From: Bugulina stolonifera
Taxonomy: Eukaryota > Bryozoa > Gymnolaemata > Cheilostomatida > Bugulidae
Direction: 5' to 3'
DNA: 64,000 bases
Assembly (NCBI GenBank): GCA_935421135.1
Contig: OW285195.1
Coordinates: 5,804,701 to 5,868,700, forward strand
Each line of letters opens with the position of its first letter. Position 1 is the first letter of the stretch. The position numbers and the translations under genes are program-made. The notes under the pieces were generated by a model. That model had not been told where the DNA came from. It saw only the letters and a program-made list of their open reading frames with translations, and made no database searches. Positions 13,301 to 49,400 of the stretch are shown here, in pieces.

Positions 13301-16300
13301 TTATATGAACGAATGAAATTTAACAGTATTGTACAAGGAGAGCTGCCTATACACCAGTTTATAATTAAACTCCAGACTCAAGCTGATGTATGCGAATATG
13401 GAACAATGAAGGATGAGCTGGTTCGTGACAGGATTGTAGTTGGAGTGAAGGACAAGCGCCTCCGAGAGTATCTAATAGACCTCGATGACCTGGATTTGCA
13501 GAAATGTATTCAAAAAGCGAAGCAGTTTGTAAGCCATCATGAGCAATCTGACAGGTTGGCAGTGGCTACCAGCGATAACAATCTTGATGTGCTTCGAACT
13601 CAACGCGATAAGACAACGTCGAACAGCCGACAAACGGAGGGTGCCAAGCAGCAGGTAGACACGAGAAATTGTTGGAAAAGCTGTTTGTACTGCAAATATG
13701 GACCTCACAGCAGGGAAACATGCCCAGCAAGAAATGCCATTTGCCATGTGTGCAAGACAAGGGGACACTGGGCCAAATCTAAATTCTGCAAGGGCAGAAA
13801 GCTTAGCTCGGCAAATGAAGTGGCAGATGAAGTTGAGGGACTGTTTTTAGGTTCCGACTCAGAATGACTAGATGTGGTCAACTCTAGCCCAGTCACTGAC
13901 ACTGGCAAAGCATGGTTTGTGGAAATCATGATAAATTCTGAACCTGTTAGGTTCAAAGTAGACACAGGTGCAGCAGTGACTGCAGTTCCTGCAAATATGT
14001 CGGAGAAGTTCTTGGACACAGAACCATCTAAGAAAATATTAATAGGTGCGGGAAACCACAAGTTGAAAATAACGGGTGTGGCCAAAGCACAGTTGTGTAG
14101 AAACTCGAGGCAAATTGAGGAGACAGTTTACTTAGTGGAGGGTCTAGTGACCCCATTATTGGGAAAGCCAGCCATATTATCTAAATTGGGATTAATTCAG
14201 TTTATAGATGAAATAGAGGGTAGTTGCCCCTGGTTTACTGAATTTCCCAAAGTATTTGAAGGATTGGGATCCATGAAAAATGAAGTGAACATTGTCTTAA
14301 AAGGGTCAATACCGCCATTTGCTCAGTCAGTGCCCCGGAGAATAGCTGCCGCACGTAAACATCCACTGGAGGTTGAGTTGCAGAGAATGGAAAAGCTAGA
14401 GGTAATCGAAAGAATAGAGAAACCGACAGAATGGTGCTCCCCGTGTATTGTCGTACCCAAAAAGAATGGTAAAATTCGAGTATGCATAGATTTCACCAGA
14501 CTAAACCAAGCAGTAATGCGTGAATATCACCCTCTACACACAACAGAGGAAACGTTGAGTGAATTAGGCTCTGCAGCAATAGTCAGTAAATTGGACGCGA
14601 ACTGCGGATACTGGCAAATGAGACTGGCCAAAGAATCTCAAGAGCTAACTACCTTCATAACCCCATTTGGTCGATACATGTGCAAGAGGCTCCCTTTTGG
14701 AATTAGTTCGGCGCCTGAAATTTTCCAAAGGGAAATGCAAAAAGCTTTAGTTGACTGTGAAGGAGTAGTGTGTCAGATGGACGATATCTTGTTGTATGGA
14801 ACTAATCAACAGGAGCATGACATTCGTCTCAGAAGAGTTATCGGGAAACTCCAAGAGGCAGGGATAACGCTAAACAAGGACAAATGTCAGTTTAATATGA
14901 CAGAAATAGTGTTTTTAGGTCATGTTATATCTGTGGCAGGCATAAGAGCAGACCCAAGTAAAACCGAGGCAATAATTAAATTTGTTACTCCCATATGTAA
15001 GAAAGAACTCCGTCGTTTTTTTGGAATTGTAAACTACTTAGGGAAGTTCTCACCCTCATTGGCACAAAGCACACACCATCTTCGACAGTTGTTGCAGAAG
15101 GAGTCTAGCTGGACATGGGGACCTGATCACGTAAGGGAGTTTGAACAGTTAAAGCAATACATGGCAGAAACTCTTACCCTGACTACAATTAGGCTGCGGT
15201 CACCGACAATGCTTAATACAGATGCCTCGTCCTATGGGTTAGGTGCAGTGGTGCTTCAGGAAGTTGACGGTGTGTGGCAACCTGTGGCATATGCATCACT
15301 CACATTAACGCCTGCTGAAAAAAGGTATGCTCAGATCGAGAAGGAGGCACTAGCAATATCATGGGGGTGCACAAAATTGGAGAAGGAGCTAGCTAGACTG
15401 CCTCTTCGAGTTCAGAGATTCAGGCTAAAGATGATGTCCTACAGCTACCGCATGAAATACACACCAGGAGAAAAGATGATTTTGGCTGATGCACTGTCAA
15501 GGTCACCTATTAGTGAAACAGAGCATGTGAGCGAGGTGGCCCATTCCGGAATGGTTGGTGAATTAGTTAATTCACTTGCCATATCCAATGGCAGATTGGA
15601 GAGGCTAAAAGCGGCGTTGCTAGAAGACGAGGTAGGAAGATTACTAGTACGCTACATTTCGGAAGGATTGCCCCAATTTAAATATATTGATCCAGTTGTA
15701 AGGAACCTGTATACGTTCAAAGAATATTTAACCTATGTTGACGGTGTTGTGTTTTACATGAATAGAGTATTCATTCCAAAGTTAGAGCAAAGTTCTGTGT
15801 TGATAGCAGTTCATAAAGGACACTAGGGAGAGAACAAGTGCCTAAGACGAGCTAGAGAGGTAGTTTGGTGGCCAGGAATGACCAAAGAAATAAGGGAAAT
15901 GGTCAAGACATGGCCCAGCTGCTTGGAGTACCGGAGAATTCCTAGAGAACCGCTAATATGCACTGAACTACCAGTGAGACCCTGGTGGCGTCTTGCAATA
16001 GATCTGTTTGAGAAAGAGGGACAATCATATCTAGTAGTAGTTGATTACTTCAGCCGATACATTACTGCGCACGAAATGCGAGAGTCCACAACGTCTGAAG
16101 CAATCGTGAAAGTCCTAAGAAACCTGTTCTGCATGCTAGGAATACCGAACTCGATAGTGAGTGATAATGGCCCCCAATTCATTTCAGAGAACTTTAAAGA
16201 ATTTCTCCGCACATGGGATATACACCATGTTACCAGCTCACCCAAGTACCCTCAATCCAACGGAGAGGCCGAAAGGGCTGTTCAAACCGTTAAAGCATTG

Positions 16301-19300
16301 ATGAAAAAAAATCTTGGACTAAAAGAAGCGCTGTGTGCATACAGAGACACCCCATTGGCAAATGGTTACTCCCCAGCACAGTTGTTGTTTGGTAGGGGCA
16401 TGAACTCGATGGGGTACCTCAATGAAAAGAGAATAGATCTGAAAAGACTACAGTGCTTTGAAAAAAGCCAAAGAATTTCACAAAGTGAGAATTATAACAG
16501 GCGGTATAGAACACAAGAACGTGGACCGCTGTCAGTTGGCCAGGAAGTCGCTATCAACGATCCGGGCAGGCCCGCTTTGAACGCCAAGATCGTAGCAACT
16601 AGAGGTCGAGAGGTAGTTGCAGTAGGCGAGTCCGAAAGGTTGCTGCGCCGAAACAGGCAGTTAGTTCACCCACGCAGTGAACAAGCGTCCCCGGAATCAA
16701 ATACCAAGATGGGAGATAAGATCCCTGAGGCAACACACTAGGTAGTAGAACCAGAGATACCAAAAGCACTACCAATGGAAAATCCACTGCCCAGTCCGAC
16801 AGCACCTATGGAAAATGATTTGCACAGACCGGCTGAGCTTAACACGCATAGTCCACATTCAAGGGGCAGAAGTTTAGACAAACCGACTTATCAGGCACCC
16901 GCGGCAACCAGAGAAGTTACAACTCGTAGCGGCCGTATAAGTAGGAGGCCTATTCGACTTAACTTATAAGTTTACACATATATTTTTCAGGAAACAATGA
17001 AGTCCTATCTAATTGGAAACTCGTTGACTCAGGACATTAAAGAAACAGGATTTCGAACCATCTCCTTACCAGGTGCGAATTGGCATGACATTTTCAAATA
17101 TGTCTATGAACGACGGCACCGGATGACCAATTCCATCATTTACATTCATGTCGGGCCCGTCAGATTCACTAGGATGCATAGGACCCAGAATAGAAAAGAG
17201 GTCCAACTCCTAACCAATCATCTGGGATCTGCCAGGTCTCACTTCGAGGAATGGGAGCGACTTAGGACATATGGGATTGTCCCAGTCATATGTACTCTCT
17301 TCCCAATGGATTTTAGAAGGTTCAACGATTCGTTGGCTAGGCGGGCTAATCGGCCGCCTTCTAGTCAACGTAGGACCAGGCCAGGTCGTCAGATTCTACA
17401 AAGTTTTTATAGTCAGAATTCAAGCATGATCACAGAAATGATCGTGTCTGAAAACAAAGAGATAATCGAGTTTAACAGGGAAAGTGAAATGTGTACACCT
17501 TTTATACACAATCACATATTTACAAGAAGGAGAGGGCACTATCATTTTCAAGATTGGCTACTTAAAGATGGACTGCATCCTACTCGAACAATCATACACA
17601 AATGGATAAAGGAGATCGAACGAGTAGTGGAGTTGAATGACATAAAGTTGGAGTACAGACGGAGAGAAAGGTCACGTAGGCGGAGATAGGATGCAGAAAG
17701 AAAGAAAAAAAAAAAACAAATTATTCGGTGTCTCCTTGTTTAACTAACACTAGTTAACTAATCACTGTTTCTATTCCCAATACTAATTGTATCGGTTTCA
17801 AATCTCTCGTTCTAGGTGTAGTTGCACCTAACCCAAAAAAACAACAAAAAAAAAACAAAAAACAAATGTTTTTGGTTGTTCTTCGTTTAACTAACATTGG
17901 TATAAATATATTATTCGTTAATTACTGTTTCTAATCTCAATACTGATTGTATGGCACTTGTGATGCTGCATTGTTTTCAAATATCTCGTTTTAGGTGTAG
18001 TTGCACCTGATTGAATAAAAAGGACTTAAGAGGGAGGTGTAGTGGCTACCGGAAAGGGGCGTTAAGACAACGTCACGAATAGTCCGAGATTGAGATCATC
18101 TCGGGAGAAAACAGAACATATCTTGGAACCAACAAGAGAGGACCTACTTTGAGACGCGACTGCAACACAGAGTTATTACTAGTAAGTACGAACTTCACAA
18201 AAAGTGTTTGCTTGTAGCTTTTTTACAAAGAAACATCCGGGATCATCTAGTGTCTATTGTACAACTAAACAGCTGCAAAGACCTACAGCATTTATGGCAT
18301 GCAGTTGTACATAGTGTGGTAGTTACTGAGAAAGAAAGGCTATAATATGTATACTAACCTCTAATGTGTAACCTTCATTGTCACTTTTTGTCAGACGTCT
18401 GTCTGGACGAAAATCCGGTAGATTTAGTAATGATGGAGAGGTGATATCAATCGTCACGTTTACTACGAAGGAGGGTGTTCGAAAAAATTTAGCCAATATG
18501 GTAATCCTCTCAACTGATCGCTCCTCTAAATCTAGGGTGACTCGAGGTTGACTGCCAATAAACAAGACACAACATATACAATGCACATAAAAAATAAAAA
18601 TGTTAGAAATATTATATCTTATTTTTTTCCGTTAATACTACTAAGATTAGTGTGAAAATGCATCTAGTACTACTTGGCAAAATTAGACTCCACACCCTCA
18701 TCAGCATCTTCAAAGGGTAGTACTGCTTTACTTTTACTTGTTACTTTCTGATGCTTATGTCTGTAACTTGATGCTATGAGCGCTTTGCATAGTACAAGTA
18801 CACCAAAGTATTTCTATGCTACCATTTTGAGCAAGGAGTAAGAGGGAAAGGGGTCTGATCTTGATAAGACTGGTGCTGTTAGTTATAAAAAGAAGCCTTT
18901 ATTACATAGGCAACAGATTTTGGCTAAGAACTTTTTGTAGAAAAAAAATTCCCTCACACATATATAGCATGCTTTTACCAAAACTTGAAACATTTGTTGT
19001 AATTCATTTGTCATAAAATAGTAAAAAATTCAGTTTTATTTCAACCCACCCACTTCAGCGAGTTTGATTTTACATATAAACAAATTGTGGTTGGCTTACC
19101 ACAGTTGAAACTCTTTAAAGTATAGACATGTCTTTGCAGTGCAGGTGTTTAACTGGAGCTGCCACTTTATACTGTTATAGCTTTAATTGAGAAAACTTTC
19201 TGGTACTTTAATATTTGTGGTTTTGTAAGGGGTGGAACCCTGATTATTATCATTATTTTAGTTAGCTACTCAGCTAACAACATAAGCCAAATAACTCTCA

Positions 19301-23700: not shown

Positions 23701-25686
23701 GTACATGTACATATACAGTACATTTGTATGTACTGTATATGTACATGTACATATACAGTACATTTGTATGTACGGTCTTTGAGTTGAGGTTAAGATGCAA
23801 CAGCACAGCATGATTGTGTTGCAACATATTTCATTCCTTCGAAAACAAACCGAACATTAGACTCAATGTTCGAGACACCCAAGTTGACATTTGAAAAGTG
23901 AACATCCCTAATTTGCATTATATAGAGCAAATTTTGCTGCCGCTTGGTACCAGCAATAGCTTTGTGTCAACAGTAACAGAGTTTGATGCAGTAGTGGAAG
24001 TATTGCAGTTTGGAGATTGCAAGCAATATTTTCTTATTCAGTTTGTGATGCTTTACTGTAAAGATTAAACTGGATCACTGGTGCACTGCTTAAACTTAAT
24101 TGTGTATGCTGTATGTATTCAGGGGTATGGCCATTTCATACTTCATGATGCTAATTATGCAAGGAATGTTATTTACATTGTACTAGTTACTATAATCCAT
24201 TATGATCCATTAAATGAATATAATGCGACGTTGCCGAATGTACCCTTATAACAGACTATTCTGTTAGTTACATTTGCACTGTTGGGGTAGAAAACACAAC
24301 TCTTCTCGTAGAACGGCAAGTGTAACACCATAGAGTGACTGGAGTAGCACAATATGTACAGTGTACAAATGTACATGAACATACAATGACCGTGTTATTT
24401 AGGTTTTTAGCACCTGCTCAAAACATTATATTTTATGGAGTTATGTTTTCTGACTCGTGCTTGCAATGTATCTACCTACCTATAAAGAAAACAAAAAAGT
24501 TGACTGCATTGTGTATTGTACGAAGGTTTACTCTATTTCAGTCTTTTATGTGAAAGGAGACTCAAAGAAAGACACTACTCCACAAACTAATAACCATTTC
24601 AAGCTTGTTAAATTTTCTTTTCCACTTCCGTTGGTCATAATTACATTTAGTTTTCCATTCTCATGACCATTTCCGAGGGGAAGGCATAGAAACAAATAAC
24701 AACTTATTCCATTCAGTAAGACATTGGTAAATTCTCACCAATGTCATACTAAATAAAAATGCAGATGGAGGCTGCTTAAAACAACCTGCAGTAATAGTCA
24801 AGTGATGCACAGAATAAATTAGCCAAAGACAATCTAATAGTGAAGCTTTTGAAACACTCACCAATTACAAAGGAGGATTCTAGTGACTGCGAATACTTTG
24901 TGATATCCTGTACAGCTGCTGCACGCAGTTTACACTTTATAAATGATCCATGTTTAAACAATCCTCGCAGACGATCTGTGAGCAACCAGCTGGCTTCAGT
25001 AACTCCATTACGGTTGACTGAAAGAAAGTGTCTACACATTAGCACCTTAACAGTAACGGAGGGGCCGTGGCCTAGTGGTTAGGGCTCTGGGCTTTCATGT
25101 GGGAGATTCTCAATTTCACTTCTCGTAAAGGTCATTATAGTTGTCCCGCGCTACTTCAGTAACTTTGGCATTGATGAAGTGCCGTCTCCACTCCGAGCTA
25201 GGAAAAATACAGACCTTTTTATTAGATCACTGCTCATTTCTGCTGTATCAGGGATCGACAAAGGTTGGGAGTAGTATAGTCAGTGCACTTCTAGACAGAC
25301 ACGCACTCATTGACCCCTGTTTTCAACCAATCACAAGCCGGTATTTCCGATTTCAACCAATCACAGAAGAGCACAAAAATTTTGCACACGACCTTGCCAA
25401 GGTCACCCCAAAATCCCCCCTTCTGATTGGTCGAAAAAACATTTGCACACTTGACCCCGAACCCGGCCACGACCCCTTCCCTCCCTCCTTCCCACCCTCC
25501 TCCCCTCCACCTCCCCCACCTCCCACTCCTCCCCCACTCCCCGCCACCGCCCTCGTCCCGTCCGCACCACCGCCACCGCCGCCACCACCGCCGCCGCCAC
25601 CACCGCCCTCACCACCGCCACCGCTGCCGCCACCACCGCCCTCACCACCGCCGCCGCCACCGCCGCCACCACCGCCACCACCGCCA

Positions 25687-25721
<35 letters not shown>

Positions 25722-28700
25722 GCCGCCACCACCGCCGCCGCCATCACCGTCATCACCGCCACTCCTCCTCCACCGCCGCCCACCCTCCCCCCCCCCCCCC
25801 CCCGCAACCTCCACTCACCCGAACGACCGATCGTTTGAGGCGGTCAAGCCGCGTCCGCCCACGTTGCGTGCGGCGCCGACCGTACACGTGGAGGCGACGC
25901 CGGTGCCCCGTATCCACCGGGCCAAGCGACTAGGCAGCGGCCCGCCGCTTCTCCTGCGCCCTCCACTCGAAAAGCTTGTGATCTAAACGAGCGAATTCGG
26001 CTGCGCTTCGCCTATAGCTCTCATCAGCGATAAGAAGAAGTACTACGGAAGGCTTGGTTTATGATGTGCATTGCATTGTTAATAAAGAAATGTGTAAAGT
26101 CTTGGCTATAAATACACTGATGGGAAGAAGGGTTGGTTCTATGATATACATTGTATTGACAATAAAGAAACGTGTGCATGTGTTTAGTCAGCATATATAA
26201 TACATTAAATAAACTTTCCACAATGGTGACAATAGAATGAATAAAAGATTGTGTACACGTGTTAAAACACAATTGAAAGAATGAAAGACACATATTTAAA
26301 AGAGTATGTCATATCTATTATTAGCAAGAAAGTCTGTGTGCATGTGTTAAGACAGTGTATATTATAAATTAGATAAACTTTTCACAATAGTAGCAATAGA
26401 ATAAATAAAAGGTTGTGTGCATGTGTTAAGTCAGCATTATGTAATATATTAAATAAACTTTTCACAATAGTAGCAATAGAATAAATAAAAGAGGAGTTTA
26501 GGTACTTATTACTCATCTTCATCAGAAGTCGTAGGAGCTATAATGTTTACGACTTCGGTCTCAGCATACTCTAATTGATATGCTCCAGCTCCAAACTCTT
26601 GACACAGTCTTACCTACAAGATGATTTTAGTTTTTTACTCAGACGAATATCACTCAAGGTGGACAAAGCAAGAAATTTATACTTCTTTATGTTGTTGGTC
26701 CCTTACCATATCTGCTGATTTGTAGAGGTGAGCTAGTTGTTGAGGGGTTTCACTTTTGTAGTTACGAACTTCAGAATCAGCTCCCAATCTTAGACATGTA
26801 TGTAGACATTCGTAGTCTTCATTCTCTATGGCAATGAGAGATGGGGCGTATCCATCTCCCATTCGCTATAATATCAAACAAGAGAATAGAATTAAACTCC
26901 CCATCTAACTTATCAATTCGATCTACTCTACTTTTATTCCACTGTAATGTATTCACTTACCCTCATATCTAAGTCAGCCCGAGTATTTTTTTTAGTACCT
27001 TTAGTGCCTCTCTATGCTTGCTGCTATGCGCTGTTTCAACAATGAGGTGGACTACACTCCTTCCATCATGATTGTAGCTCTGTACATTGTCTTGGGGAAG
27101 TGATTTGTAAGGAACTCTGAAGTATGGATGCTTTACTTCTGCTCTGGTCAAACTTGTGGTTAGAGCATGAATAACCTTAGCTCTACCCAGAGGTGCAGCA
27201 ATGTGAAGGGGGGTGTCACCTTCCAAATAAACATTAGCAATATAGATAAGTACCGAATTGTTACAAGTTTTGCAACACTTTATTTTTTAACAAGCAATGC
27301 ATGCAAACATTGGTGCTATAAAACACTAACCCCAAGCATCGGCTATTGCTCCATCCGCTCCCCTTGTGATGATGAGGCGAATTAGTGAATCCGAACAATA
27401 AGACTGTACAGTTAGGTGAAGTAACGTCTGCCGATTCGCATTCTTTGTATTCAGTTGTTTGTGACTCCTCGCAACAAATACCGCGAGTGCAACGGCTCTC
27501 TCATCTCTATCTCGGGCTGCTTCTAGTACCTCACTACATCATTTAGCATGATATTTGTTTTTCACATAGTTGAGAGGTAGTTATATGGGAAATTTGTCTA
27601 TCATATTTTATTTTGATCATAAAAGACAATACGAAACAAAAAAAAAATAGTTGGAAGTATGTATAACTTACAACTCTTCATCCTTTCCATCTTGCTCCCA
27701 AAAGATAGAACGAATTTCTTCTAGTAACTGTGTGCTAAGCTTATTACGAATATCGGTTAAAGGATCCCATTTCTGCCAGTCTAGAGGTAAGCTTTTTTGG
27801 AGAAAGAGCTCAGACACCCCCTCAAATAAGTATTTATTCTCATACTTGCTTTGTTCTGTACATCTTTCCACTGTTACCTTCATCAGCTCTTGGTTTATAG
27901 GAGTCATTAGCTTGTTGCTATACTCGCTTGATCCATATCCACTTTCCATGCTATTTGTGTGCTAACCTTCTTTAATTTCTATTAAGAACAGACTGGAGCT
28001 AGAAAGAGTTAACTAAACTACTGTTTCCACCTCTCTTTATATAGTGAATAAAAAGATACAAATAAAGCTGATTGGCTAACAGCATATACATTGGAGCGCA
28101 TTGGAAACACATCAGAGTGCATCGAATCACATCGGGAAAGATCGAAAACACATAGGGAAACATCGAAACACATCGGGAAAGGTCGAAAACACATCGGGGG
28201 AGGTCGAAAACACATCGGGACACATCGAATCACATCGGGGGAGGTCGAAAACACATCGGGACACATCGAATCACATCGGGGGAGGTCGAAAACACATCGG
28301 GACACATCGAATCACATCGGGGGAGGTCGAAAACACATCGGGTCACATCGAATCACATCGGGGGAGGTCGAAAACACATCGAATCACATCGGGGGAGGTC
28401 GAAAACACATCGGGGGAGGTCGAAAACACATCGAATCACATCGGGGGAGGTCGAAAACACATCGGGGGAGGTCGAAAACACATCGGGGGAGGTTGAAAAC
28501 ACATCGGGACACATCGAATCACATCGGGGGAGGTCGAAAACACATCGGGACACATCGAATCACATCGGGGGAGGTCGAAAACACATCGGGACACATCGGG
28601 GGAGGTCGAAAACACATCGAATCACATCGGGGGAGGCCGAAAACACATCGAATCACATCGGGGGAGGTCGAAAACACATCGAATCACATCGGGGGAGGTC

Positions 28701-31700
28701 GAAAACACATCGAATCACATCGGGGAGGTCGAAAACACATCGGGGGAGGTCGAAAACACATCGGGACACATCAAATCACATCGGGGGAGGGCGGAAACAC
28801 ATCGAATCACATCGGGGGAGGTCGAAAACACATCGAATCACATCGGGGGAGGTCGAAAACACATCGAATCACATCGGGGGAGGTCGAAAACACATCGAAT
28901 CACATCGGGGGAGGTCGAAAACACATCGAATCACATCGGGGGAGGTCGAAAACACATCGAATCACATCGGGGGAGGTCGAAAACACATCGAATCACATCG
29001 GGGGAGGTCGAAAACACATCGAATCACATCGGGGGAGGTCGAAAACACATCGGGGGAGGTCGAAAACACATCAGGACACATCGAATCACATCGGGGGAGG
29101 TCGAAAACACATCGAATCACATCGGGGGAGGTCGAAAACACATCGAATCACATCGGGGGAGGTCGAAAACACATCGAATCACATCGGGGGAGGTCGAAAA
29201 CACATCGGGACACATCGAATCACATCGGGGGAGGTCAAAAACACATCGGGTTACATCGGGTTACATCGGGGAAGGTCGAAAACACATCGAGACACATCGA
29301 ATCACATCGGGGGAGGTCGAAAACACATCGGGGGAGGTAAAAAACACATCGGGTTACATCGGGTTACATCGGGTTACATCGGGTTACATCGGGTCACATC
29401 GGGGAAGGTCGAAAACACATCGGGACACATCGAATCACATCGGGGGAGGTCGAAAACACATCGAGACACATCGAATCACATCGGGGGAGGTCGAAAACAC
29501 ATCGGGGGAGGTCGAAAACACATCGGGTTACATCGGGTTACATCGGGTTACATCGGGTTACATCGGGTTACATCGGGTTACATCGGGTTACATCGAATCA
29601 CATCGGGATGCAATAAATCAGACTAAAAAAAGGCAAATCACTTCTGATTGGACAGAGATTTCCATAAAAGCAAGCGTGAGAGAGGATTTTTATCATTACC
29701 ACTCAACCACCTAGTAAAGACTTGCAACTCTGTGGATATTTACTAATTTCTCTGAATAAACATCACTCAACAATTAATATGGTGAGTAAACTTATTTTAA
29801 TATGTATTTTAGTATGAATTTACTCATTTGAGTTAACATTGGGACTCATTCTATTTTAGTAGTGATATAATACTCCCTCGGTATGACCAGAGCTTAGAAA
29901 CTTTGTAAGCTTATGTATTAAACTGTTTTGATTCTCAACATGAGAGCAAGTATGTAGAGATCTGATCTGTCTATACTACAATTTGTGTGACCGGAGCTTA
30001 GAAGCTTTATATGTGGTGAGATTTATTTTCAATATGAGTAGTTATACCACTAGTAGTGTAATAAGTATCAAAACAGTTTATTACCACTTGTACTGGCTAT
30101 ACTAGTACATCCTAGCTATTTTAATATGTATTTTAATATGAACTTACTCATTTGAGTTAACATTGGGGCTAATTATATTTTAGTAGTGGTATAATTCTCC
30201 TTTGGTATGTCCAGGGCTTAAAAACTTTGTAAGCTTATATATTAAACTGTTTTGATTCTCAACATGAGAGCATGTGTGTAGAGATCTGCTCTGTCTATAC
30301 TACAATCAGTGTGACCAGAGCTTAGAAACTTTATTATAAGTGGTTATACCACTGTAGTGTTTCTTTCTTTAGTAACTATGTTGCATTAGTAGTTCCATCT
30401 ACTTGACTCATGCTTTGGTATATGTTTATTACTCTACATATACTTACAGGCTTCTACATCTAAATATCAAAGAAAGAAATATATAAGAAAAATTAAAACA
30501 TCAAAAAAAGGTATGAAGTATATGATTACGTACGATTCGGAAGACAGAAGACGAATCTCGAGGAAAAGAATCCCATCTCCAGAAATGGTTAGTCTATTAT
30601 CTTATTTGTTCACACATGCATTACACCTTCAATCCACTATGGTGTTGGGTTTCTAAGATGTCAAAGGAGATTACTGACATTTCTTCAGAAGTACATGTTA
30701 GTTACACATAATGATGATGTACTTTTTTATACTATAAGCCAGTGTTCGAAGTGGAACAAATGAGGTGGGTACACGGTACCTACCTGCAATCTTAGGACCT
30801 TTCCTAAAGGGTGCATTGGTCACTCAGAAGCTGCAGATCATAATTAGAAGTTGTTCTCCCATTTCAGCAAGACAAAACAAGGGAGGACAATTTCTAATTA
30901 TGGTTGATAGCAAATGAGTAACCTCTTTACACAGAGTACATGGTACCAATGTAGACCATTCCTTATATTTTAAACTACTGAGTGTGCTTTGTGTCCTTCA
31001 ATTTTGTATTACTGCTGCATTGATTGTAAGAATGAATAGATCTACATTATTTAAACCACGACAACTCCCCTTATCTTTCTTTCACTGCAATAAAAGTACA
31101 TGTACTCAAAGAGATAACAACTTCTTTATTTATTACAAAATGCTGAACTACAACATTTTACAGTTGTATATTTTGTCAAAAGTATATAAACACAAACAAC
31201 AACAGCATGTAACTGCAACTGTATGAAAACTATGGTTATTCAACAAAACAGCTATGACATTGACATCAACATTAGAGAAGGGAAGGAGTTGAAGTTTATC
31301 AAAAAAATTATAATGAACAAAAGTATTATACAATAAATCACATGTATTTCCCTTGTCACAACCTACCTGTAGACTTTAATATATAACACCAGTAATGTTA
31401 TTTGAACAACAGCTATAAGGAAAAGGTTGAAGCCTATAAAACATACATACCTGTGTAAAGGAGTTTCACCAATTTATCTAGGATATATACATGTACTACT
31501 CACTGGGTTTTCTCTAATATTATTATAATTTTATTAATTTAAGGAATTTATCTGTGGGAGCTGTCAAGTCTTGCATCAAATCCATGAAAACACCAGGCCC
31601 TGACTGGGGTTTGAACCAATGGTCTCTACAGTGCCTAATCACCTAGAAAAGTGAACAGAAGACATTGCCACAACACCAGTACAGCAATGTTAGAAAAAGA

Positions 31701-34700
31701 CAGCTTCACCAGCGAGCAGTAGATATGAAAAATATAAATTAGGGTATCATTTCTGCAAAATTAAATTCCTCACCAGCTTCCTTTGGATCACTAAACACTG
31801 TATTCCAAGTATCCTCACCACTTGTGACAACATCTTCCAAAAATGCTAAATGTTTTATAAATTGGCAGCACTAGTAAAAACTGGCCTCAAAGTTAAATCC
31901 ATGGCCGAATATAACCTTAGCAAGAAACATCAAATCATACTGACAGTAAATTCAATGTAAACTAAAAATATAGTATTGCCTAAAAAGACTATTCAGCTAC
32001 CTAAAATACTCGACAAACTATCATGCATGTAGGTTACTAGGCAGCATTCAAGTACACTAATAGACAGCATGCAAGTACACTAATATGCAGCATGCAAGTA
32101 CACTAATAGGCAGCATACAACTTCATTACCTGTGGTCTTTTGTGGACTTCTGAAAGCAATGAATCACCTCAATACAACAAAAATAGAGAATACAAACAAA
32201 ACGATTACTTTAATTGCAGTCAACCAGTGAAACCAAGCTCAATCCAAATACATAGTTTCTACTAGTACCATCTAGACTAAACAGTGACAGGATTCTTCTT
32301 AGCTCTCTGTGAATTTCAATTTGTCATAACCTCACTCTTTGCCTCACTTACTAAACTTGGAAGTAGTTTGCAATAGTAGAGCAATACCTACAACTGTTGA
32401 AATTCAATACTTATACTATGTGCAAAAACAAATAGTATTCCTACCTATTCTAGAATAAAAACATCAACGTTAGATTAAAATATTTTATATAAAACAATAC
32501 AACAATTGCTATATTATTTACATTAAATATTCGATACAATAATGATAATTAAATATAAATTAATTATCTAATTCCCTGTTCTATTAAAAACGATTTATTT
32601 CTATTCTATATTTTAATTTTTATTTATTGAATATCGACTCTTGTTCTTGTGACAATCCAGAAAGCAATATATTTATTTATACTTGATGTAGGCGTATTGC
32701 TACAACAATTATTATCAAAATAATTTATTTCATATAAAAATTAATAAAAATATAAATAATTATGGTTATCATTATGATATGATTACCATTTGATTATCTA
32801 ATTCTATTGATTCACTTCTAATTCTATTATTTATAATAATCACTATAATAAATAATTATTTATTTTTTTTATATAATTAATATAATGTTTGATTTATTAT
32901 TTATATGCTATATTATTGAATGCAGATTCTTTCTCTAGTGATAATCTAACAAATAGGAATATTTATGTTATTGTTATATACAACATCATGGATGATCATA
33001 TATGATATTAAATTAACACTTATTTTTAATTTTTGTATTTTATATTTTATTAGCAAAGTAAGAAAAATACAACTATATCCGATATTTATTCACTCAGTCA
33101 AACGTCAAATTCCAATAGAGTACAACAATTAACTTTTGAGATTTAGGTTTAGAGCTAAAAAAAACTTTTAGATTCAACTGTTTGGCCACTGTCCTTATCA
33201 AAAAGTTTTCATGGCTCTGCAAACGCATTCGAAAAACTGAAAATACTAAAGAAAGTGGAACCCATATTCAAGTCCTATGAAACCATTAACACAATGACTA
33301 ACTTTGTCAGTAAAGCAGAAGGATTTATTTGTGTGCATGTTGCTGGTCCAAGCTACTATAAACTTACTTTGACATTTCGGGATTGACTTAACACGCTATT
33401 ATCAATCAAACGATCGCTAGATTAGAGGGAAATTTTACGATCAGCAGTCACTCAGCAACCAGTAAACCTATTTCGATTGCGAAAACTGCCGTGTCTTCAG
33501 CAAAACTAGTCAATTACCATGAGGGTACACGCCTGCTGAGAGTGTACCCACCAAAATTGAGGTGGGTACACGCCGTATACTCCCGTATAACCACAATTCG
33601 AACACTGCTATAAGCCTCTTACCATGTCTAGAATGTCAAAAGAGACTACTTCCTTTTTAAAACCAGATGTTAATTAGCCATAGTATGATTTTCTCTAATT
33701 CTATAAGTCTCTTACCATGTCTAAGATGTTAAAGATTAGTGATATTTTTATTATAAGTGTTGCACTTTCTTTCTTATGTATTATTTTTATCAATAGGACA
33801 CTTTTTTTTTCTTTTCTTATGTGAAAAAATATAACATAAATTACAACTGGTTTTCTTATGTTAATGATGTATTTCTCTTTATGTGAGTAAATAGACAGGC
33901 TTTAGTAGACTTGCTTAGTACTTAGAGTGCTAGTTTTTTCATCAAATTCTTCAAAAACCATATATTACAAATAACTATGTTAATGTAGTTTGTTAATTAG
34001 TCTCTGCACATTTTATTTACATTATAGAATGAAAAAGAAACAGAACTAGGGGAAGAAGAAATTGCATTATTTGAAGAATGTGGGGGAGTAGATGGGTTCG
34101 AGATAGGTAAGAATGATCTAGTATCTATTTGTATATTTAGCAGAGATGCCAGACTCGAGTTAAAGACTCTCACTCGAGTTAATTCAAGCAACATTTTATG
34201 GCTTATTATAAAGACTTGTAGCTTGAATATACAGCTGTCAAAAACTTGTAACTTGAATTGTAATTAAATTATGGCTATGATCAAAGACTCTTAAGTCACA
34301 CATCATTAAGTTGAAATATTCAATAACTCGAGTTTTCATTGGGCAGCTGTGAATTGTAATGACCACAGTTATAACCACCAACCACAACCACAATTATAAC
34401 ACATTTTACACTAAAACTGAGACATTTTGCTTTGAAATTTGATTTTCTAACACCATTTCCTAACAAAATTTCACCATAAGCTAAACAATAACTCAATAAC
34501 TCTATAAAAAGAATTGAATTGAAACTTGCTTGTAGTTAACTTGGATAACTTGACAAAAACTTGAGTTTCTGGGGACATGTAAATATTTAACTTGTAACTT
34601 GAAAATTTTGATCTGTCACTGAAAGAATTGACTTGTAACTTGAAGAGTCACAACTAACAGTTGGCCATGAAAACTTGAGTTTCCAAAATAAAACTTGCAC

Positions 34701-37285
34701 ACATCTCTGATATTTAGAATCTTTTTTTTTTTTTTTTCTGATTTACAAGTAAGTCATATGTTCTCTCTCACTTATTCTTGTTATTTTCTTTCTTTTTTAG
34801 GACTCAGAGCAAAGCCGATATGTAAGGGGGGTCTAAGATTCTATGTCTTTGTTAGTGATGAGACAAAAAGAAGACTGGAGATGTCACTAACAAAGCCATT
34901 TGAATCGGACGACCCCTGCTTTTTATGCAATAAGAATGTTGGGCACCGACGAGGTGTCCACATTCAACAACATTTTTTGCTCCGAATCTGTTTTTGCTAT
35001 CACATAACAGTAGATGATGAGGGGATGAATAGACACTACAACTTTCCATCTAATCATCATATTGATGGAAAGCCCTGTCACCGACACATCTCATTCAACA
35101 CACGCTTTCTAACTGATATCTATTCATTAAAAAAGACCATATCCTTTTTGCAAAGGGTCACTGGTCACTCTCCACCTTCCAAAATACTCATCCCCGCATA
35201 CACTCCAACAACTGTTGGTGGGGTAGTATACCCTCCCTTCTTTAAGGGGATGTCTACTACTCCATTCTCTTTAAAGTCTGGGGTGTGCTCTTCACAATTT
35301 CCTCTCCCTTCTCACCATCATTTTGATTCAGATGCTTCTTCCATCAGTAACTCTCTTACTAATGGAGACATTACCAACTCTACTTCTTCTCTTACAACTA
35401 CTACTATTACTACTACCATTACTACCACTCCTTCTACTGCTTCTTTTCCCCCACTCTTTTCTTCACATTCACCCTCTCATTCTCCTGAAAGATCTGATGA
35501 TACAGTTACCACTGTTTCGATACGTACTTCTACTCCCACCTCTTCACCTGCTCCACTCTTTTTCTTAGATTCACCCTCTTTTTCTCTTGGAAGATCTAAT
35601 AATACAATTACTAGTCTTTCAATACCTACTTTTATTACTACTTCTACTACTACCACTTCTTCCTTTTCTTTAGCTTCACCCTCTCTTTCTTTTGGAAGAG
35701 AGCTACTTAGCTCGCAATCTCCTTCTTGTTCGTCTGAACTCAATCTTAATACCCCCACCACTATTACCCCCATAGAAGAGGAGACTGTCAGTGAACTAGT
35801 TGATCGAAGCAGACTCCCCCCATCTTTTTTCTCTGGAGCAGTTGAGTATTACCGCTCTGCCATTTTTCATCTCAAGAAGAATGGGTATCACAGAGAGGTA
35901 ATAGCACAAGCTGAAGCTTACCTTCGAGTCAGTGAAGAAAAGCTCTAATCATCTTTCTTTAGTTTTTTTCTTTTTTCTCCCACTCTCTCTCTCTGTAGTG
36001 TCTCATTCCCTCTGCATTTACTTTTATGTGATAGCAAATCAGTGAGGATTTTTTTTAAATTATTTTTTTAAATTATTATATAATGGTATTCTAACACTTA
36101 TACACATCCTTTTATACATTCTATTGCTACTATTGTAAAAAGTTTATTTAATGTATTATATGTGCTGACTTAACACATGCACACAGCTGTCTCTTGCTAT
36201 AATAGCTATGACATACTCCTTTACATAGGTGTCTTTTATTCTTTCAATTGTGTTTAAATCATATTATAATGATATTTCAACATGTGTACACAATCTTTAT
36301 TTATTCTATTGCTACTATTGTGAAAAGTTTATTTAATGTATTATATATGCTACCCTTAACACATGTACACAGACTTTTCTTGCTAACAATAGCTATGACA
36401 TACTCCTTTACATATGTAGCTTTTTTATTCATTCTATTGCTAGTGTTGTAAAAAGTGTATTTAATGTATTACATAATGCTGACTTAACACATACACTCAA
36501 TCTTTTATTTATTCTATTGCTACTATTGTGAAAAGTTTATTTACTATATTACATAATGCTGACTTAACACATGCACACAACCTTTTATTTATACTATTGC
36601 TACTATTGTGAAAAGTTTATCTAATGTATAATATACACTGTCTTAACACATGCACACAGACTTCCTTGCTAATAACAGATATGACATACTCTTTTAAATA
36701 TGTGTCTTTTATTCTTTCAATTGTGTTTTAACACGTGTACACAATCTTTTATTCATTCTATTGTCACCATTGCGAAAAGTTTATTTAATGCATTATATAT
36801 GCTGACTTAACACATGCACATGGTTCTTTGTTGTCAATACAATGTATATCATAGAAACAACCCTTCTTCCCATCAGTATATTTATAGCCAAGACTTTACA
36901 CATTTCTTTATTAACAATGCAATGCACATCATAAACCAAGCCTTCCGTAGTACTTCTTCTTATCGCTGAAACCAAGCCTTCCGTAGTACTTCTTCTTATC
37001 GCTGATGAGAGCTATAGGCGAAGCGCAGCCGAATTCGCTCGTTTAGATCACAAGCTTTTCGAGTGGGGGGCGCAGGAGAAGCGGCGGGCCGCTGCCTAGT
37101 CGCTTGGCCCGGTGGATAAGGGGCACCGGCGTCGCCTCCACGTGTACGGTCGGCGCCGCACGCAATGTGGGCGGACGCGGCTTGACCGCCTCAAACGATC
37201 GGTCGTTCGGGTGAGTGGGGGTTGCGGGGGGGAGGGTGGGCGGCAGTGGAGGAGGAGTGGCGGTGATGACGGTGATGGCGGCGGC

Positions 37286-37318
<33 letters not shown>

Positions 37319-37402
37319 GGTGGTGGTGGCGGTGGCGGCGGTGGCGGCGGTGGCGGCGGCGGTGGTGAGGGCGGTGGTGGCGGCGGCGGTGGCGGTGGTG
37401 AG

Positions 37403-37434
<32 letters not shown>

Positions 37435-40400
37435 TGGCGCGGACGGGACGAGGGCGGTGGCGGGGAGTGGGGGAGGAGTGGGAGGTGGGGGAGGGGGAGG
37501 GGAGGAGGGTGGGAAGGAGGGAGGGAAGGGGTCGTGGCCGGGTTCGGGGTCAAGTGTGCAAATGTTTTTTCGACCAATCAGAAGGGGGGGATTTTGGGGT
37601 GACCTTGGCAAGGTCGTGTGCAAAATTTTTGTGCTCTTCTGTGATTGGTTGAAATCGGAAATACCGGCTTGTGATTGGTTGAAAACAGGGGTCAATGAGT
37701 GCGTGTCTGTCTAGAAGTGCACTGACTATACTACTGTTGGGTCAGAACAGCTGTAAAATCTACTTCTAAAATCTTCGTATTTTCCTGCGCAACGCCAACT
37801 TACAAAAATTTTGTTTAGAAAGACTGCCGTTATGGGCAATATTAGTGTCCTGGGCAATATCAGTGTTCGAAGTAGAAAAAATATGGTGCGTGCACAGTGC
37901 ATGTGATCCTACAGATTAGCTTTGTGTAGCTTTCTATTTAATCTTATAGTAGCTAAGAAATTAGTGAATTACTAAAATGAAAATAAATATGCTCTGGTGA
38001 GATTCGAACTCAAGTCCCTATGAATGAGTGTCAAGCAATCTACCGTTACACTATCAGGTCCACAGAAATATTATGGGGAAAAATAGCAATTAAAATGTGG
38101 ATAAACGGTTGTTAGACGTATAAATCCTCAAATTAAGGTGGGTACACGTCGTATACTCCTGTATAACTAAACTTTGAGCACTAGGTAATATACGTGTATA
38201 ATGTTGGTTTCTGCTATTTAGTTTTTACCACCCACACTTGCATAATATCGTAGCTAAATAATTAGCAAAAAAAGAGATTTTTCTTCGATGTGCACTACCA
38301 TCCATTTGAGGTGGTCTCCACAATTCTCAGGCCTTAAAATGATCAGATTATGGCGATACTTTGCTAGCAACAAGGGGAGGGGGGTATTTAACCACAGATT
38401 TATTATATACAAAGTACGTGTAAGAGCACCCTTCAACGAGAATGGGCTGAACTACATGTATATTATACAAGTTAACAAATCTTGAACCGCATTTCCCCCT
38501 GATGTGTGGCGGGTGCAGTATGCTGTTAGTAGTATTACATAGTAAACAACTTGTGGTTAGCAACTGTAACAGAAGTATTCTAAGTTCTACAGCACTATCA
38601 ACCTTGAGTAGAGCTGTTATATGCATTACAAGCCTTGTAAATGTGATGTCAACATTACCCAAATCAGAAGTTTTGTTGATTATCCTAGACACTGTTTGTT
38701 CATCTTCTGCAGTCCAGTTGTAATAACTAGAGCAGGTTATGACTAAGTAGTCATAGAATGCAGGTTTCCCATTCTCACTTTGGTTGCTAGGCGGTGTAAA
38801 TGTAAAATTTGCAGAGTCACCTTCCACTGACATGTTAAAGTATCTGGGAGGAAGAGGAGCTACAAGTATTAAGTAATGCTTTGGTAAAGGGGTATTGCAA
38901 TGAGACAGTTTGACTAGTAAGTAATTGAGAACTAAACCATTCTACACTGCAGACTAGTCATAATTCTATTTTCAAAGTGATATGCAACTTGTTTAGTTTC
39001 TTAGGGTATTTCCAGATGCTAGAAATATACTACTACCAACAAAACTGAGAGAAAATTTAGCTTCAGTACCCAGTTTAGTATTGGATCCTGGTACTACAAC
39101 AACTTTTATTATACTGCTAATTCTACGCTATCTTTGTGGAGACATCTCCATCTACCTAGTACGCTATTACATTCAGCCATGTCATTATATTGGTTTTTGG
39201 GGGGTTTGTGTTGTCGTCCTAATTATATGAATAGAGTGTAGGTGTAAATAGAACCAGTGCTTATGGAATGCTGGAATGAACTGAAAGTTTAAATCTAGAG
39301 CAATGTTACTGTACTGGGCATTAAACAAAGAGACAAAGATTGTGGTAAAGAAACGCCAAAGATATTATCTTCACTTGTGTCTTGCTTCCATAATGATCAA
39401 GTTCATCCAGCCTAATGGCGAGGCACCACCAGCAGAATTGGGGGCCATCCAGCACCACCCCACACACCTATCATAGCCACTGGGACCACCAATTACTAAG
39501 GAACCCACTAGCACCAAGATCAGTACACCTAATTATAGCTGTCTCTGGCAGCTTGAGAACTTTGGTTCAGTGGATTTCACACCTTTTAAATACGCTTTGC
39601 TGTAAATATACAGTATTGCTAAGGTGTTCTCCCAGGCATATCTCTGAGCTGCACTGATGAGGTGTTAAACACCGAAACAGTACACTGTATGCAGATTGAG
39701 CAATTATAGCATTATGATAATAAATTCACCATCAATCAAACATTAAACAAAGACCAAATATTAAACAGGACATGAATCATAGAAAATTATGTAGAGTATA
39801 TATCAGCATCAATTGTGGTGGAAAGGCCGACGTACCCAGCACCCAGGCTGACCTATGCAGAGGCCATCAAGAGAGCTCTGTCACTCAAACGGATCCTATC
39901 TGCCTTATGTGACTCTCAACCCTCATTCATGTCTAGATTACTGCATTAATAACTTGCTTAGTGTCTACTCATGTATACCTATTATCCAATCATGCTTGCC
40001 TAAACTTGCCTATTATTGTTTACTATGCGTTACGCATCGTTATAGCAAGTTTACATTATTGTATTAATTATTCTAAGTCTCTTTGCCTATTGTAAATAAT
40101 GACCAATGTCTTGGATCGTAGCAGGTCTTACATATAATCTTTTCCACATTATTTTAAGCGCGTTTTGTAGATGGCCGACCGATTTAAGGTCGGACCTCGA
40201 GCACTTTTCAGCCATATTGTTATGCAATTTCCAAGGCTGATACCTTATCGTCCGACCCGATACCTTATCGGGTTCTTTTACCAGAAACTGATTTAGTATA
40301 AAAGCAAGCGCATTTTCTTATGCTAGTCAGTTATTGATTGCACTCCATGGCCGTAACTATCTAGGCAGCTCAGGCGGCCCTAGCCGCCTGAACTTTTTGT

Positions 40401-46400: not shown

Positions 46401-49400
46401 TTTAATGTTTATATGATAAAATTTGCTTTCGGGCAATTTTTTTTGTTAATGCTATGAAAGCTTAGTCACTCCAACTATATGAATGAAGAACTCTTGTTTG
46501 TTTTGCAATGGATAGTAAATGGATAGAAAATCGCATCTCATGGCCATACACAGTTTTAGATAGTAACTAATGTTCCTTCATGGTCGTTAATAAACCATCT
46601 CAAAACACCACAGTGACCAGATTGGTTACAAGCAGTTCAGTTCTACCACGTTCTCCCCACCACAACAAGCCATGGGTCTTTCAGCATCCCACTGCTGCCA
46701 CCAATGTCGTGGATTTTTTCCTGGGAGCAATGTGGTCTCGAACCGCCAACCGTGTGTATGGGCTGATTGCCGCTATACATGCGGTTGTTGAAGCTTCCTT
46801 TATAGGGTCGCCAAGATGGCCGTGATGGTAGAGGTTTCAGACACATGCTAGGCGCAGTGCCGGAGGTTAGCGGTTCGAGACCACTTTGCTCCCAGGAAAA
46901 AGTCCTGTGGGATTATAGTCTAGACTCTAGAGGTCAACGCATATGACGAAGCCGCCTATTGGGTACAGGGATGAGCGCTAACGAATAGGATCTAGATACG
47001 AGACTGAGGTAGAAGACACGAGGAGAGAGCGGGGACTTCTCTTCATTGTACTGGTAAGTCTAGATGTGTTGTAAAAGCCTATCCTTACTATATTATACCT
47101 TGACGTGACATGGTACCACGGGTGGGGTAGCTGAGTTTTCAAGTTATAGGTATACTGTACTACTGGATAGACTTTTTCAAAGCGAGAGGCGATCAACAGA
47201 GGAGGGGAGAGTAAAAAGAAAGGAGAGAGAGAGATTTTCATCATTTATTGTTATCAATCGTTATTGTGGAGCAGTGAGTTTCAGAGTGATTATAGAGGAG
47301 AGAGAAGAGGAGTGAGGTTGTATACTAACTTACTTATTAAAAGAAAGAAAATAAGGAGTAGAGATATTATAATATTAAAGTAAATTGTTATAGAAAATTC
47401 ATTATTGCCATTCAGAGAGAAAAAGATGGCGACTGGGTTTAGTCATTCGGGATTTCCTGAGCTTCGTATTGATCCACAAGATGTGTCAGGTTTATGGAGT
47501 TTAAATTATGCATTAGAATGAAAAGCTTTGAGATGGAAAATGATAAAGTTACTGATGAACATGGTACGGAAACCTTGGTTCCAAAATTCACTAATGAAGG
47601 TAAACTATTAGTATTTTTGAAATCTATTGACTCAGAAGGTAGAGAGACATTACTGTCCACGGGTTTGGATTTAGAAGGGGTCAATACCACGTATGATGAA
47701 GCTTTGGTGGTTTTGAAGAGAAGATAGTTTGTACGTTAGAACTCAGAGTTTTGTGAAAGTACAACAATGTGCTAGTGAAGATCCTATTCGTGAAGCGAAT
47801 GTAGAGATCAGGAATAGATTTAAATCTATTTCAACTTGTATATCGGTAGTCAAAGGCGCTAACAGAAATCTACTAGGTATTTCAGAAATTAGAAAACTAA
47901 ACTTGTTGGCTATAGTAGAATCAGTGTGTGCCAACACTTTTAATCTCTTTGTGAAGTTTCCTGAGCTTTTCAAAAGACTTGGAGTGCTGCCTGAGATATT
48001 TTCAGTCAAATTGAAAAGGGGTATTGAACCCTACCATCTAACGAGACCTAGGGTAATAGCAGCAGGTCTTAGAGAAAAAGCCAAGGCTGAAATAGATAAA
48101 ATGTTAGAAATGAGGGTAATCGAACCTGTTGAACAACCGACAGAGTGATGTTCAGGCTTGACTATAGCCCCTAAGCCAAACGGAGCAATTAGATTATGTG
48201 TAGATTTAACTAGACTGAACAAAAGAGTCAGAAGGGAAAATTATCTTTTTCCTAGGGTTTGCGATATGTTGTCTAGTTTGTCTGAGGGAAAAATATTTTC
48301 CAAATTGGATGCAAACTGTGGATTCTGGCAAATGAAATTAGATGAGAAGTGCAAACTGCTCACTACCTTTATTTCACCTTGGGGTAAATTTTGCTTTAAA
48401 AGAATGCCATTTGGCATTAGCTCTGCGCCTGAGTTCTCTATCAGAGAGCCATGGAAAAAATTCTTCATAGCTTAGAAGGTGTTGTATGCTTGATGGACTA
48501 TGTCCTGGTTTATGGTGAAGATGCTAACCAACATTGGTCTAGGGTAGAAAAAGTGTTGAATAGAGCTCAAAGTTCGGGAGTAACTCTCAAAACGAGCAAA
48601 TGTGAGTTTGGGTGCTCGTCAGTAAGGTTTCTAGGACATGTAGTTAGTGGAGAAGGCATTAAGCCAGACCTAGAAAAAGTTAAAGCTATTTCAGAGATGC
48701 TACCTCCAAATAACAAAAAGGAGGCACGCAGGTTCATATGGGTAGTCAATTACCTAGGTAAATTCAGTAAAAAGCTCGCTGAATTGAGCGTTCCCCCGTT
48801 ACGATGTGATAGGCGGAAAAAGTCTGTGATATTGGGGTGTTGATCAGCAGAACTCTTTTAACAAGATAAAGCGAGAGCTGTCAAGTACACCTGCATTGTG
48901 TTCTTTTGACTTGAATAGAAAACATAGAGTTTTAGCAGGCACCAATAAATCTGCGATAAGAGCAGCGTTGTTACAAAGCACCGACAGGGGAGACTGGCAG
49001 CCGGTAGAATATGCTTCTCGCAAAATGACAGAGGCGGAGCGAAAGTATGCGATGATTGAAAAAGAATCTTTAGCTATAACATGGGCATGCGAGAAATTTG
49101 ATTTTTATTTGATGGAGAGACAGTTTGAGAGTGAGACAGATCACAAACCATTGGTCTCACGCCTAGGGAAAAAAGATTTATATCATTTACGTTTGAGAGT
49201 ACAGAGATTTAAGTTAAGGCTAATGAGATTTGAGTACAACATACTCCATACTCCAGGTAGAGAAATATACTTAGCTGATGCATTTAGTAGGCCTTGCACA
49301 GAAGGGATTACTGATGAAGCAATTTACAATTGCGCTCTAGTAGAACGTTACATAGCGAATATTGTTGAAGAGAAGCTTTTAGGCAGTGTCAGGGAACAAG

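Follow-up and report, generated by a model that had tools for sequence, protein, structure and literature searches.

A probable gene-carrying, non-autonomous partner of Maverick/Polinton-class elements in Bugulina stolonifera

A 64-kb stretch of the genome of the bryozoan Bugulina stolonifera (the window, by which we mean the whole stretch analysed) contains a mobile element of 12,466 bp at positions 25270-37735. We read this element as a gene-carrying, non-autonomous partner (type B) of a Maverick/Polinton-class element (type A) of the same genome, and put the probability of this reading at roughly 0.7. The two types have the same ends and different contents, with a capsid candidate and integration functions in one and an I-kappa-B-like gene and an orphan gene in the other, so the window element probably belongs to a two-part mobile system as one of its halves. 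The usual picture of a Maverick is that of a self-sufficient unit; in this young and abundant family the work appears to be split among elements that share a single set of ends.

When up to three mismatches are allowed, a 41-nt end pattern matches the genome at 361 places in forward and 364 in reverse orientation, against none for the reversed-pattern control (the assembly, tzBugStol2.1, is reported to span 235 Mb; PMC10213821). This rules out the window element as a lone oddity and bears out the expectation that other copies with its termini exist; Bugulina stolonifera carries hundreds of young, virus-like elements with common ends and differing contents. The first 100 listed end places (on C1, on C2, and at the beginning of C3; a subset of the genome set by listing order) resolve into 48 pairs and four unpaired ends. 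These pairs comprise 20 of type A (18 assigned from gene content, five of them via stretches read, and two more from a capsid search), 22 of type B, one of type C, and five without assignment. Type B has one fixed gene set across its assigned copies. Type C is noncoding and is built from the ends plus long tandem arrays; no gene open reading frame (ORF) was recognised in it (L009 300-8676; L028 487-9868). Six gene loci on C1 and C2 (three A, three B) have no listed end nearby and must have lost or changed their ends. The longest of the 48 pairs spans 17.2 kb (C1:26262246-26279404). L017 and L021 (also L004 and L005; C1 at ~14.20 and 14.30 Mb) are two type A copies that have an identical left flank and the duplication GCCATG, which would fit a duplication of the filled site itself.

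Mean p-distances among 30 ends (345 positions) are 0.57% within type A and 0.88% within type B, compared with 0.73% for A–B comparisons; the ends are therefore not separable by type. Left and right ends of one element are 98.6%–100% identical over the outer stretch (12 elements), and in all 12 two-ended copies (seven B, three A, two C) each end stops at the copy's own perfect 6-bp duplication, so that the repeats are confined by the duplications. The sequence-only reading that first drew attention to this DNA had offered two options, a derived non-autonomous element of the Maverick/Polinton class or a new cargo-carrying superfamily. The first stands, as the ends and 6-bp duplications match that class and same-ended elements encode an rve-chromodomain integrase. 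A new superfamily with unique ends is unlikely, since type A, which codes for integrase, has indistinguishable ends. The interiors are another matter: L025 (type A) and L012 (type B) have nothing in common at E<=1e-5 beyond their ends and a CATCGGG array, and on this comparison we reject the reading of type B as a deletion derivative of type A. CATCGGG arrays are found in every type B and type C stretch and in all nine type A elements in which the array end was read.

The integrase of type A has Pfam matches to rve (1.3e-11) and Chromo (1.2e-6). It is accompanied by a packaging ATPase of FtsK/A32 type (Pox_A32 at 1.9e-6, above cut-off) and by a Maverick-type capsid candidate of 461 amino acids (aa), which has 40 database homologues, one identical and the others at 22%–51%. 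Sequence and profile searches of the PDB, which bear on a double jelly-roll fold, gave no match for the capsid candidate, and neither it nor the integrase has relatives on the viral contigs searched. The integrase (359 aa) is full length, stop-free, and near-identical in the best 113 of 383 genome candidates scored, as is the capsid candidate in the best 92 of 272. It had been proposed that relatives with the same termini would carry both integrase and PolB. Integrase was found, together with capsid-type genes; PolB was not, and the type A and B stretches read contain no ORF of PolB size.

The window copy is bounded by a perfect 6-bp target-site duplication, GTTGGG, at 25264-25269 and 37736-37741 (both unstranded), with GTTGGG followed by AGTAGTATAGTCAGTG on the left and CACTGACTATACTACT followed by GTTGGG on the right. 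The end motif (AGT)2//(ACT)2 is present (AGTAGT...ACTACT). The left terminal inverted repeat (25270-26492, + strand) starts with AGTAGTATAG and holds GC-rich tandem arrays; the right one (36501-37735, - strand) terminates in CTATACTACT. Over these 1.22 kb the arms are 92.7% identical (1260 aligned columns, including gaps), rising to 99.5% in the outer 212 bp and 98.8% in an inner 246 bp. An 80-bp tandem repeat occurs in two copies at 26335-26491 (+) and in ~4.9 copies at 36423-36820 (-). The array between the two genes (28130-29607, +) contains 67 CATCGGG motifs, all on one strand, and related arrays occur in types A and C; the remaining 51.5 kb of the window has three such motifs, on both strands. 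No NF-kappa-B site was found in the intergenic region (27950-29779, either strand, zero matches to the motif), and Rfam gave no match within the window. Neither ORFs of at least 50 aa nor Pfam searches of gene pieces and spliced proteins revealed an integrase (rve included), transposase, or polymerase in this element. The sequence-only reading had thus described the element well in its inverted termini and GTTGGG duplication, both read directly at the borders, its inverted repeats of about 1.2 kb, its two divergent spliced genes, and its lack of a mobility enzyme; its span of 25264-37741 included both duplications and shrinks to the element proper given above.

The 12.5-kb size holds for this copy and is inflated because the copy contains two nested insertions; 19 of the 22 type B end pairs measure 8.36–9.60 kb. 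The larger insertion (30740-33607, 2,868 bp, unstranded) lies in intron 2 of gene 2, has the ends CAGTGTTCGAA, and is flanked by an 8-bp duplication, CTATAAGC, at 30732-30739 and 33608-33615; from these ends and this duplication we take it to be hAT-like. The second (34141-34712, borders approximate, ~570 bp, unstranded) lies in intron 3. Sister copies have neither.

The two genes are divergent, have GT-AG introns, and recur in sister copies. Gene 1 (26509-27949, - strand) has five exons (27949-27672, 27533-27331, 27219-26961, 26865-26707, and 26613-26509). In the window copy the reading frame breaks within exon 3; five of six sister copies read through, and the product in sister copies has 334 aa. 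Its closest relative is a bugulid protein, 'cact' from Bugula neritina, to which it is 70% identical over 87% of the length, and it also matches a Watersipora subatra NF-kappa-B inhibitor (60%); an ankyrin-repeat domain is recognised (Pfam Ank_2, 3.7e-13), and BCL3 matches at 1.6e-12. Judged by these similarities, gene 1 is of host type, I-kappa-B/cactus. The N-terminal piece of the B. neritina protein (138 residues) matches 148 stretches of the genome, corresponding to the first-exon region of gene 1, of which 142 are stop-free, host locus included. One of them, C5:15180327-15180725, covers residues 3-135 of the 138 and from its sequence looks like the host's own I-kappa-B/cactus gene, the remaining matches being to the part shared with the element gene. 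The phosphodegron motif of I-kappa-B/cactus is DSGxxS. The element protein starts MESGYGSS where the aligned B. neritina protein has DSGFMS; the degron is therefore altered in the element protein.

Gene 2 (29779-35948, + strand) has four exons (29779-29781, 30450-30587, 34028-34106, and 34801-35948) and encodes an orphan protein, of 455 aa in the window copy and longer in sister copies, with a Cys/His-rich stretch. Scoring of 8000 candidates gave no homologue at E<=1, no Pfam family or PHROG was assigned, the viral contigs searched held no relative, and the one PDB match has E=0.26. Exon 4 is full length in four of seven sisters examined (L011, L012, L020, and L027). Selection was assessed by counting distinct variants against one reference copy. 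In 15 copies, gene 2 has 42 synonymous and 47 nonsynonymous variants, a nonsynonymous-to-synonymous ratio 0.40 of neutral (p=1.8e-5); gene 2 is under purifying selection. Nine type A ORFs pooled have 82 synonymous and 119 nonsynonymous variants (0.53 of neutral, p=9.2e-6, although some of the ORFs overlap and are not independent). Taken singly, the integrase, ATPase, 134-aa, and 147-aa ORFs reach p<0.05, and the capsid (p=0.067), protease, 451-aa, 145-aa, and 195-aa ORFs do not. Pairwise sums agree in direction with the variant counts, at 0.27 for gene 2 and 0.14 for the integrase, and give 1.46, from few changes, for exon 1 of gene 1. Taken together, these measures imply that gene 2 is maintained; gene 1 is not decided by this sample. 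The word 'cargo' in the sequence-only reading thus undersells gene 2.

These observations bear on two other accounts of type B. It could be a passive gene capture in the manner of Pack-type transposons, in which two host genes came to lie between Maverick ends and were amplified by chance. The host-type, spliced gene 1 is what such a capture would look like, but the purifying selection on gene 2 and its lack of a detected homologue, the stop-free state of nearly all first-exon stretches of gene 1, and a cargo that is fixed rather than varied across assigned copies make this account very improbable. Type B could also be autonomous, with gene 2 coding for a recombinase or replication initiator of a new kind whose targets are the ends or the CATCGGG arrays, and with ends that A and B came to share by recombination. 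A selected gene without known relatives and with a Cys/His-rich stretch leaves room for such an enzyme, and the arrays resemble iterons. However, 6-bp duplications and (AGT)2//(ACT)2 ends are hallmarks of a Maverick integrase, which type A supplies, and the structure model of gene 2, built alignment-free, is uninformative (predicted local distance difference test score, pLDDT, of 32); we find autonomy of type B scarcely credible.

If type B is instead a partner of type A, the type A integrase would recognise the common ends and insert A, B, and C in trans, and the type A capsid and ATPase may package type B too. The CATCGGG arrays and ends would be the cis signals, and may well suffice, since the noncoding type C retains just these. 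The I-kappa-B homologue would damp the NF-kappa-B defence of the host, and gene 2 might provide some further service to the A/B pair; type B would therefore pay its way and not be a mere hitch-hiker. As neither A nor B yielded a PolB, replication would have to be supplied from elsewhere, by the host or by separate PolB-coding loci. PF03175 has 11 matches at ten genome loci. The five located on C1 and C2 are all more than 3 kb away from any listed end pair, on which ground we reject a PolB inside type A or B elements there. Six of the loci (L040-L046; C1, C2, C4, and C10) form one separate young family, 98%–99.8% identical, whose PolB is found with an endonuclease VII match; the stretches read have no similarity to the window element and no CATCGGG motifs. 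Two more PolB-like families, with weak PF03175 matches, are represented by L047/L048 (99.8% identical) and L049/L050 (94.5%).

A closer interdependence can be imagined, in which a single bipartite or multipartite integrating DNA virus has A and B as its obligate segments, the first providing integration and particles and the second regulation and host control. The shared ends would be expected of a segmented virus, the numbers are near 1:1 (20 A versus 22 B among 48 pairs), selection is comparable (0.40 for gene 2, 0.53 for the pooled type A genes), and the two gene sets do not overlap. On the other hand, nothing indicates that A needs B, a gene-less type C exists, neither part has a replicase, and a satellite that competes well would also reach equal numbers. 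We regard obligate segments as possible but unlikely. Equally, it is only tentatively that we raise a split-genome Maverick-class virus in an animal genome, with a capsid/integration segment, a host-control segment that has the I-kappa-B homologue and the orphan protein, a common pool of ends and CATCGGG arrays to keep the two together, and a polymerase borrowed from the host or another element; if this is true, we know of no earlier segmented member of the Maverick/Polinton class.

Several points weigh against the partnership of A and B that we favour. The trans-mobilisation of type B is a proposed step, and the autonomy of type A is itself unproven because type A has no PolB. The capsid protein remains a candidate with a putative double jelly-roll fold, and the protease-like protein of type A falls below the cut-off (Peptidase_C5, E=0.14). 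Gene 2 is broken or truncated in three of the seven sisters examined (L010, L023, and L026), and gene 1, with 7 synonymous and 17 nonsynonymous variants in seven copies, gives a ratio of 0.89 (p=0.48). The five pairs without a type could belong to another type.

An empty allele had been suggested as a check on the insertion; no filled-versus-empty pair was found for the window element, the search covering a one-haplotype assembly and including paralogous sites. Its left flank (25060-25240) holds a dispersed repeat with 95 candidates that by eye resembles a tRNA-derived short interspersed element. Elsewhere in the window there is a Ty3/gypsy-like retroelement at 12935-17686 (RVT_1 9e-25, rve 1.7e-16), after which a 239-aa ORF (16970-17686) has no Pfam match, and a second gypsy-like retroelement at 47717-51637, split across several ORFs (RNase H 1e-24).

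The family offers a tractable case for asking whether integrated animal DNA viruses can be segmented or can support satellites with services of their own. It also bears on the means by which elements that lack a recognisable polymerase can multiply, and on the dealings of such elements with NF-kappa-B immunity in a little-studied phylum. An alternate haplotype (GCA_935421085.1) and RNA reads (ERR10123683) have been deposited for the Bugulina stolonifera assembly (PMC10213821), so existing data allow tests of insertion polymorphism and expression.

The literature searched yielded no description of a two-part Maverick or of a gene-bearing non-autonomous one. Among known systems, Maverick/Polinton elements (polintoviruses, adintoviruses) are the nearest. 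Vertebrate Mavericks are reported to have (AGT)2//(ACT)2 or (AG)3//(CT)3 ends, 6-bp duplications, and long inverted repeats (PMC8097293), and the elements here have the same end motif, 6-bp duplications, and long inverted repeats; type A adds the rve integrase with chromodomain, the packaging ATPase, and the capsid candidate. They differ in that no PolB was detected in A or B, in their length of 8–11 kb versus 15–20 kb (PMC4028283), in the division of gene content between two element types, and in the spliced genes of type B, whereas intact vertebrate Mavericks are described as intronless (PMC8097293). Absence of PolB is not peculiar to this family: polinton-like viruses mostly lack both PolB and rve integrase (PMC11071308), and Tlr of Tetrahymena lacks PolB while encoding capsid proteins, an ATPase, and an rve integrase (PMC4028283). 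Type A resembles Tlr in its integrase, ATPase, and capsid candidate without PolB; Tlr, however, encodes a superfamily 1 helicase, none of which Pfam recognised in type A, and the available portion of PMC4028283 does not mention two gene-bearing partners for Tlr. Bidnaviruses and polydnaviruses also have several DNA segments, and polydnaviruses carry I-kappa-B-like ankyrin genes that are reported to inhibit NF-kappa-B (PMC3359993; PMC11071296); the elements here are separately integrated, have Maverick ends and no known particles, and contain no bidnavirus gene that we could see. Miniature inverted-repeat transposable elements and deletion derivatives are alike in that type B would rely on an enzyme supplied by a different, same-ended element, a description that fits type C. 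Type B departs from them in keeping two genes unrelated to A, one of them under selection, and in an interior that, in the copies compared, is not a remnant of A.

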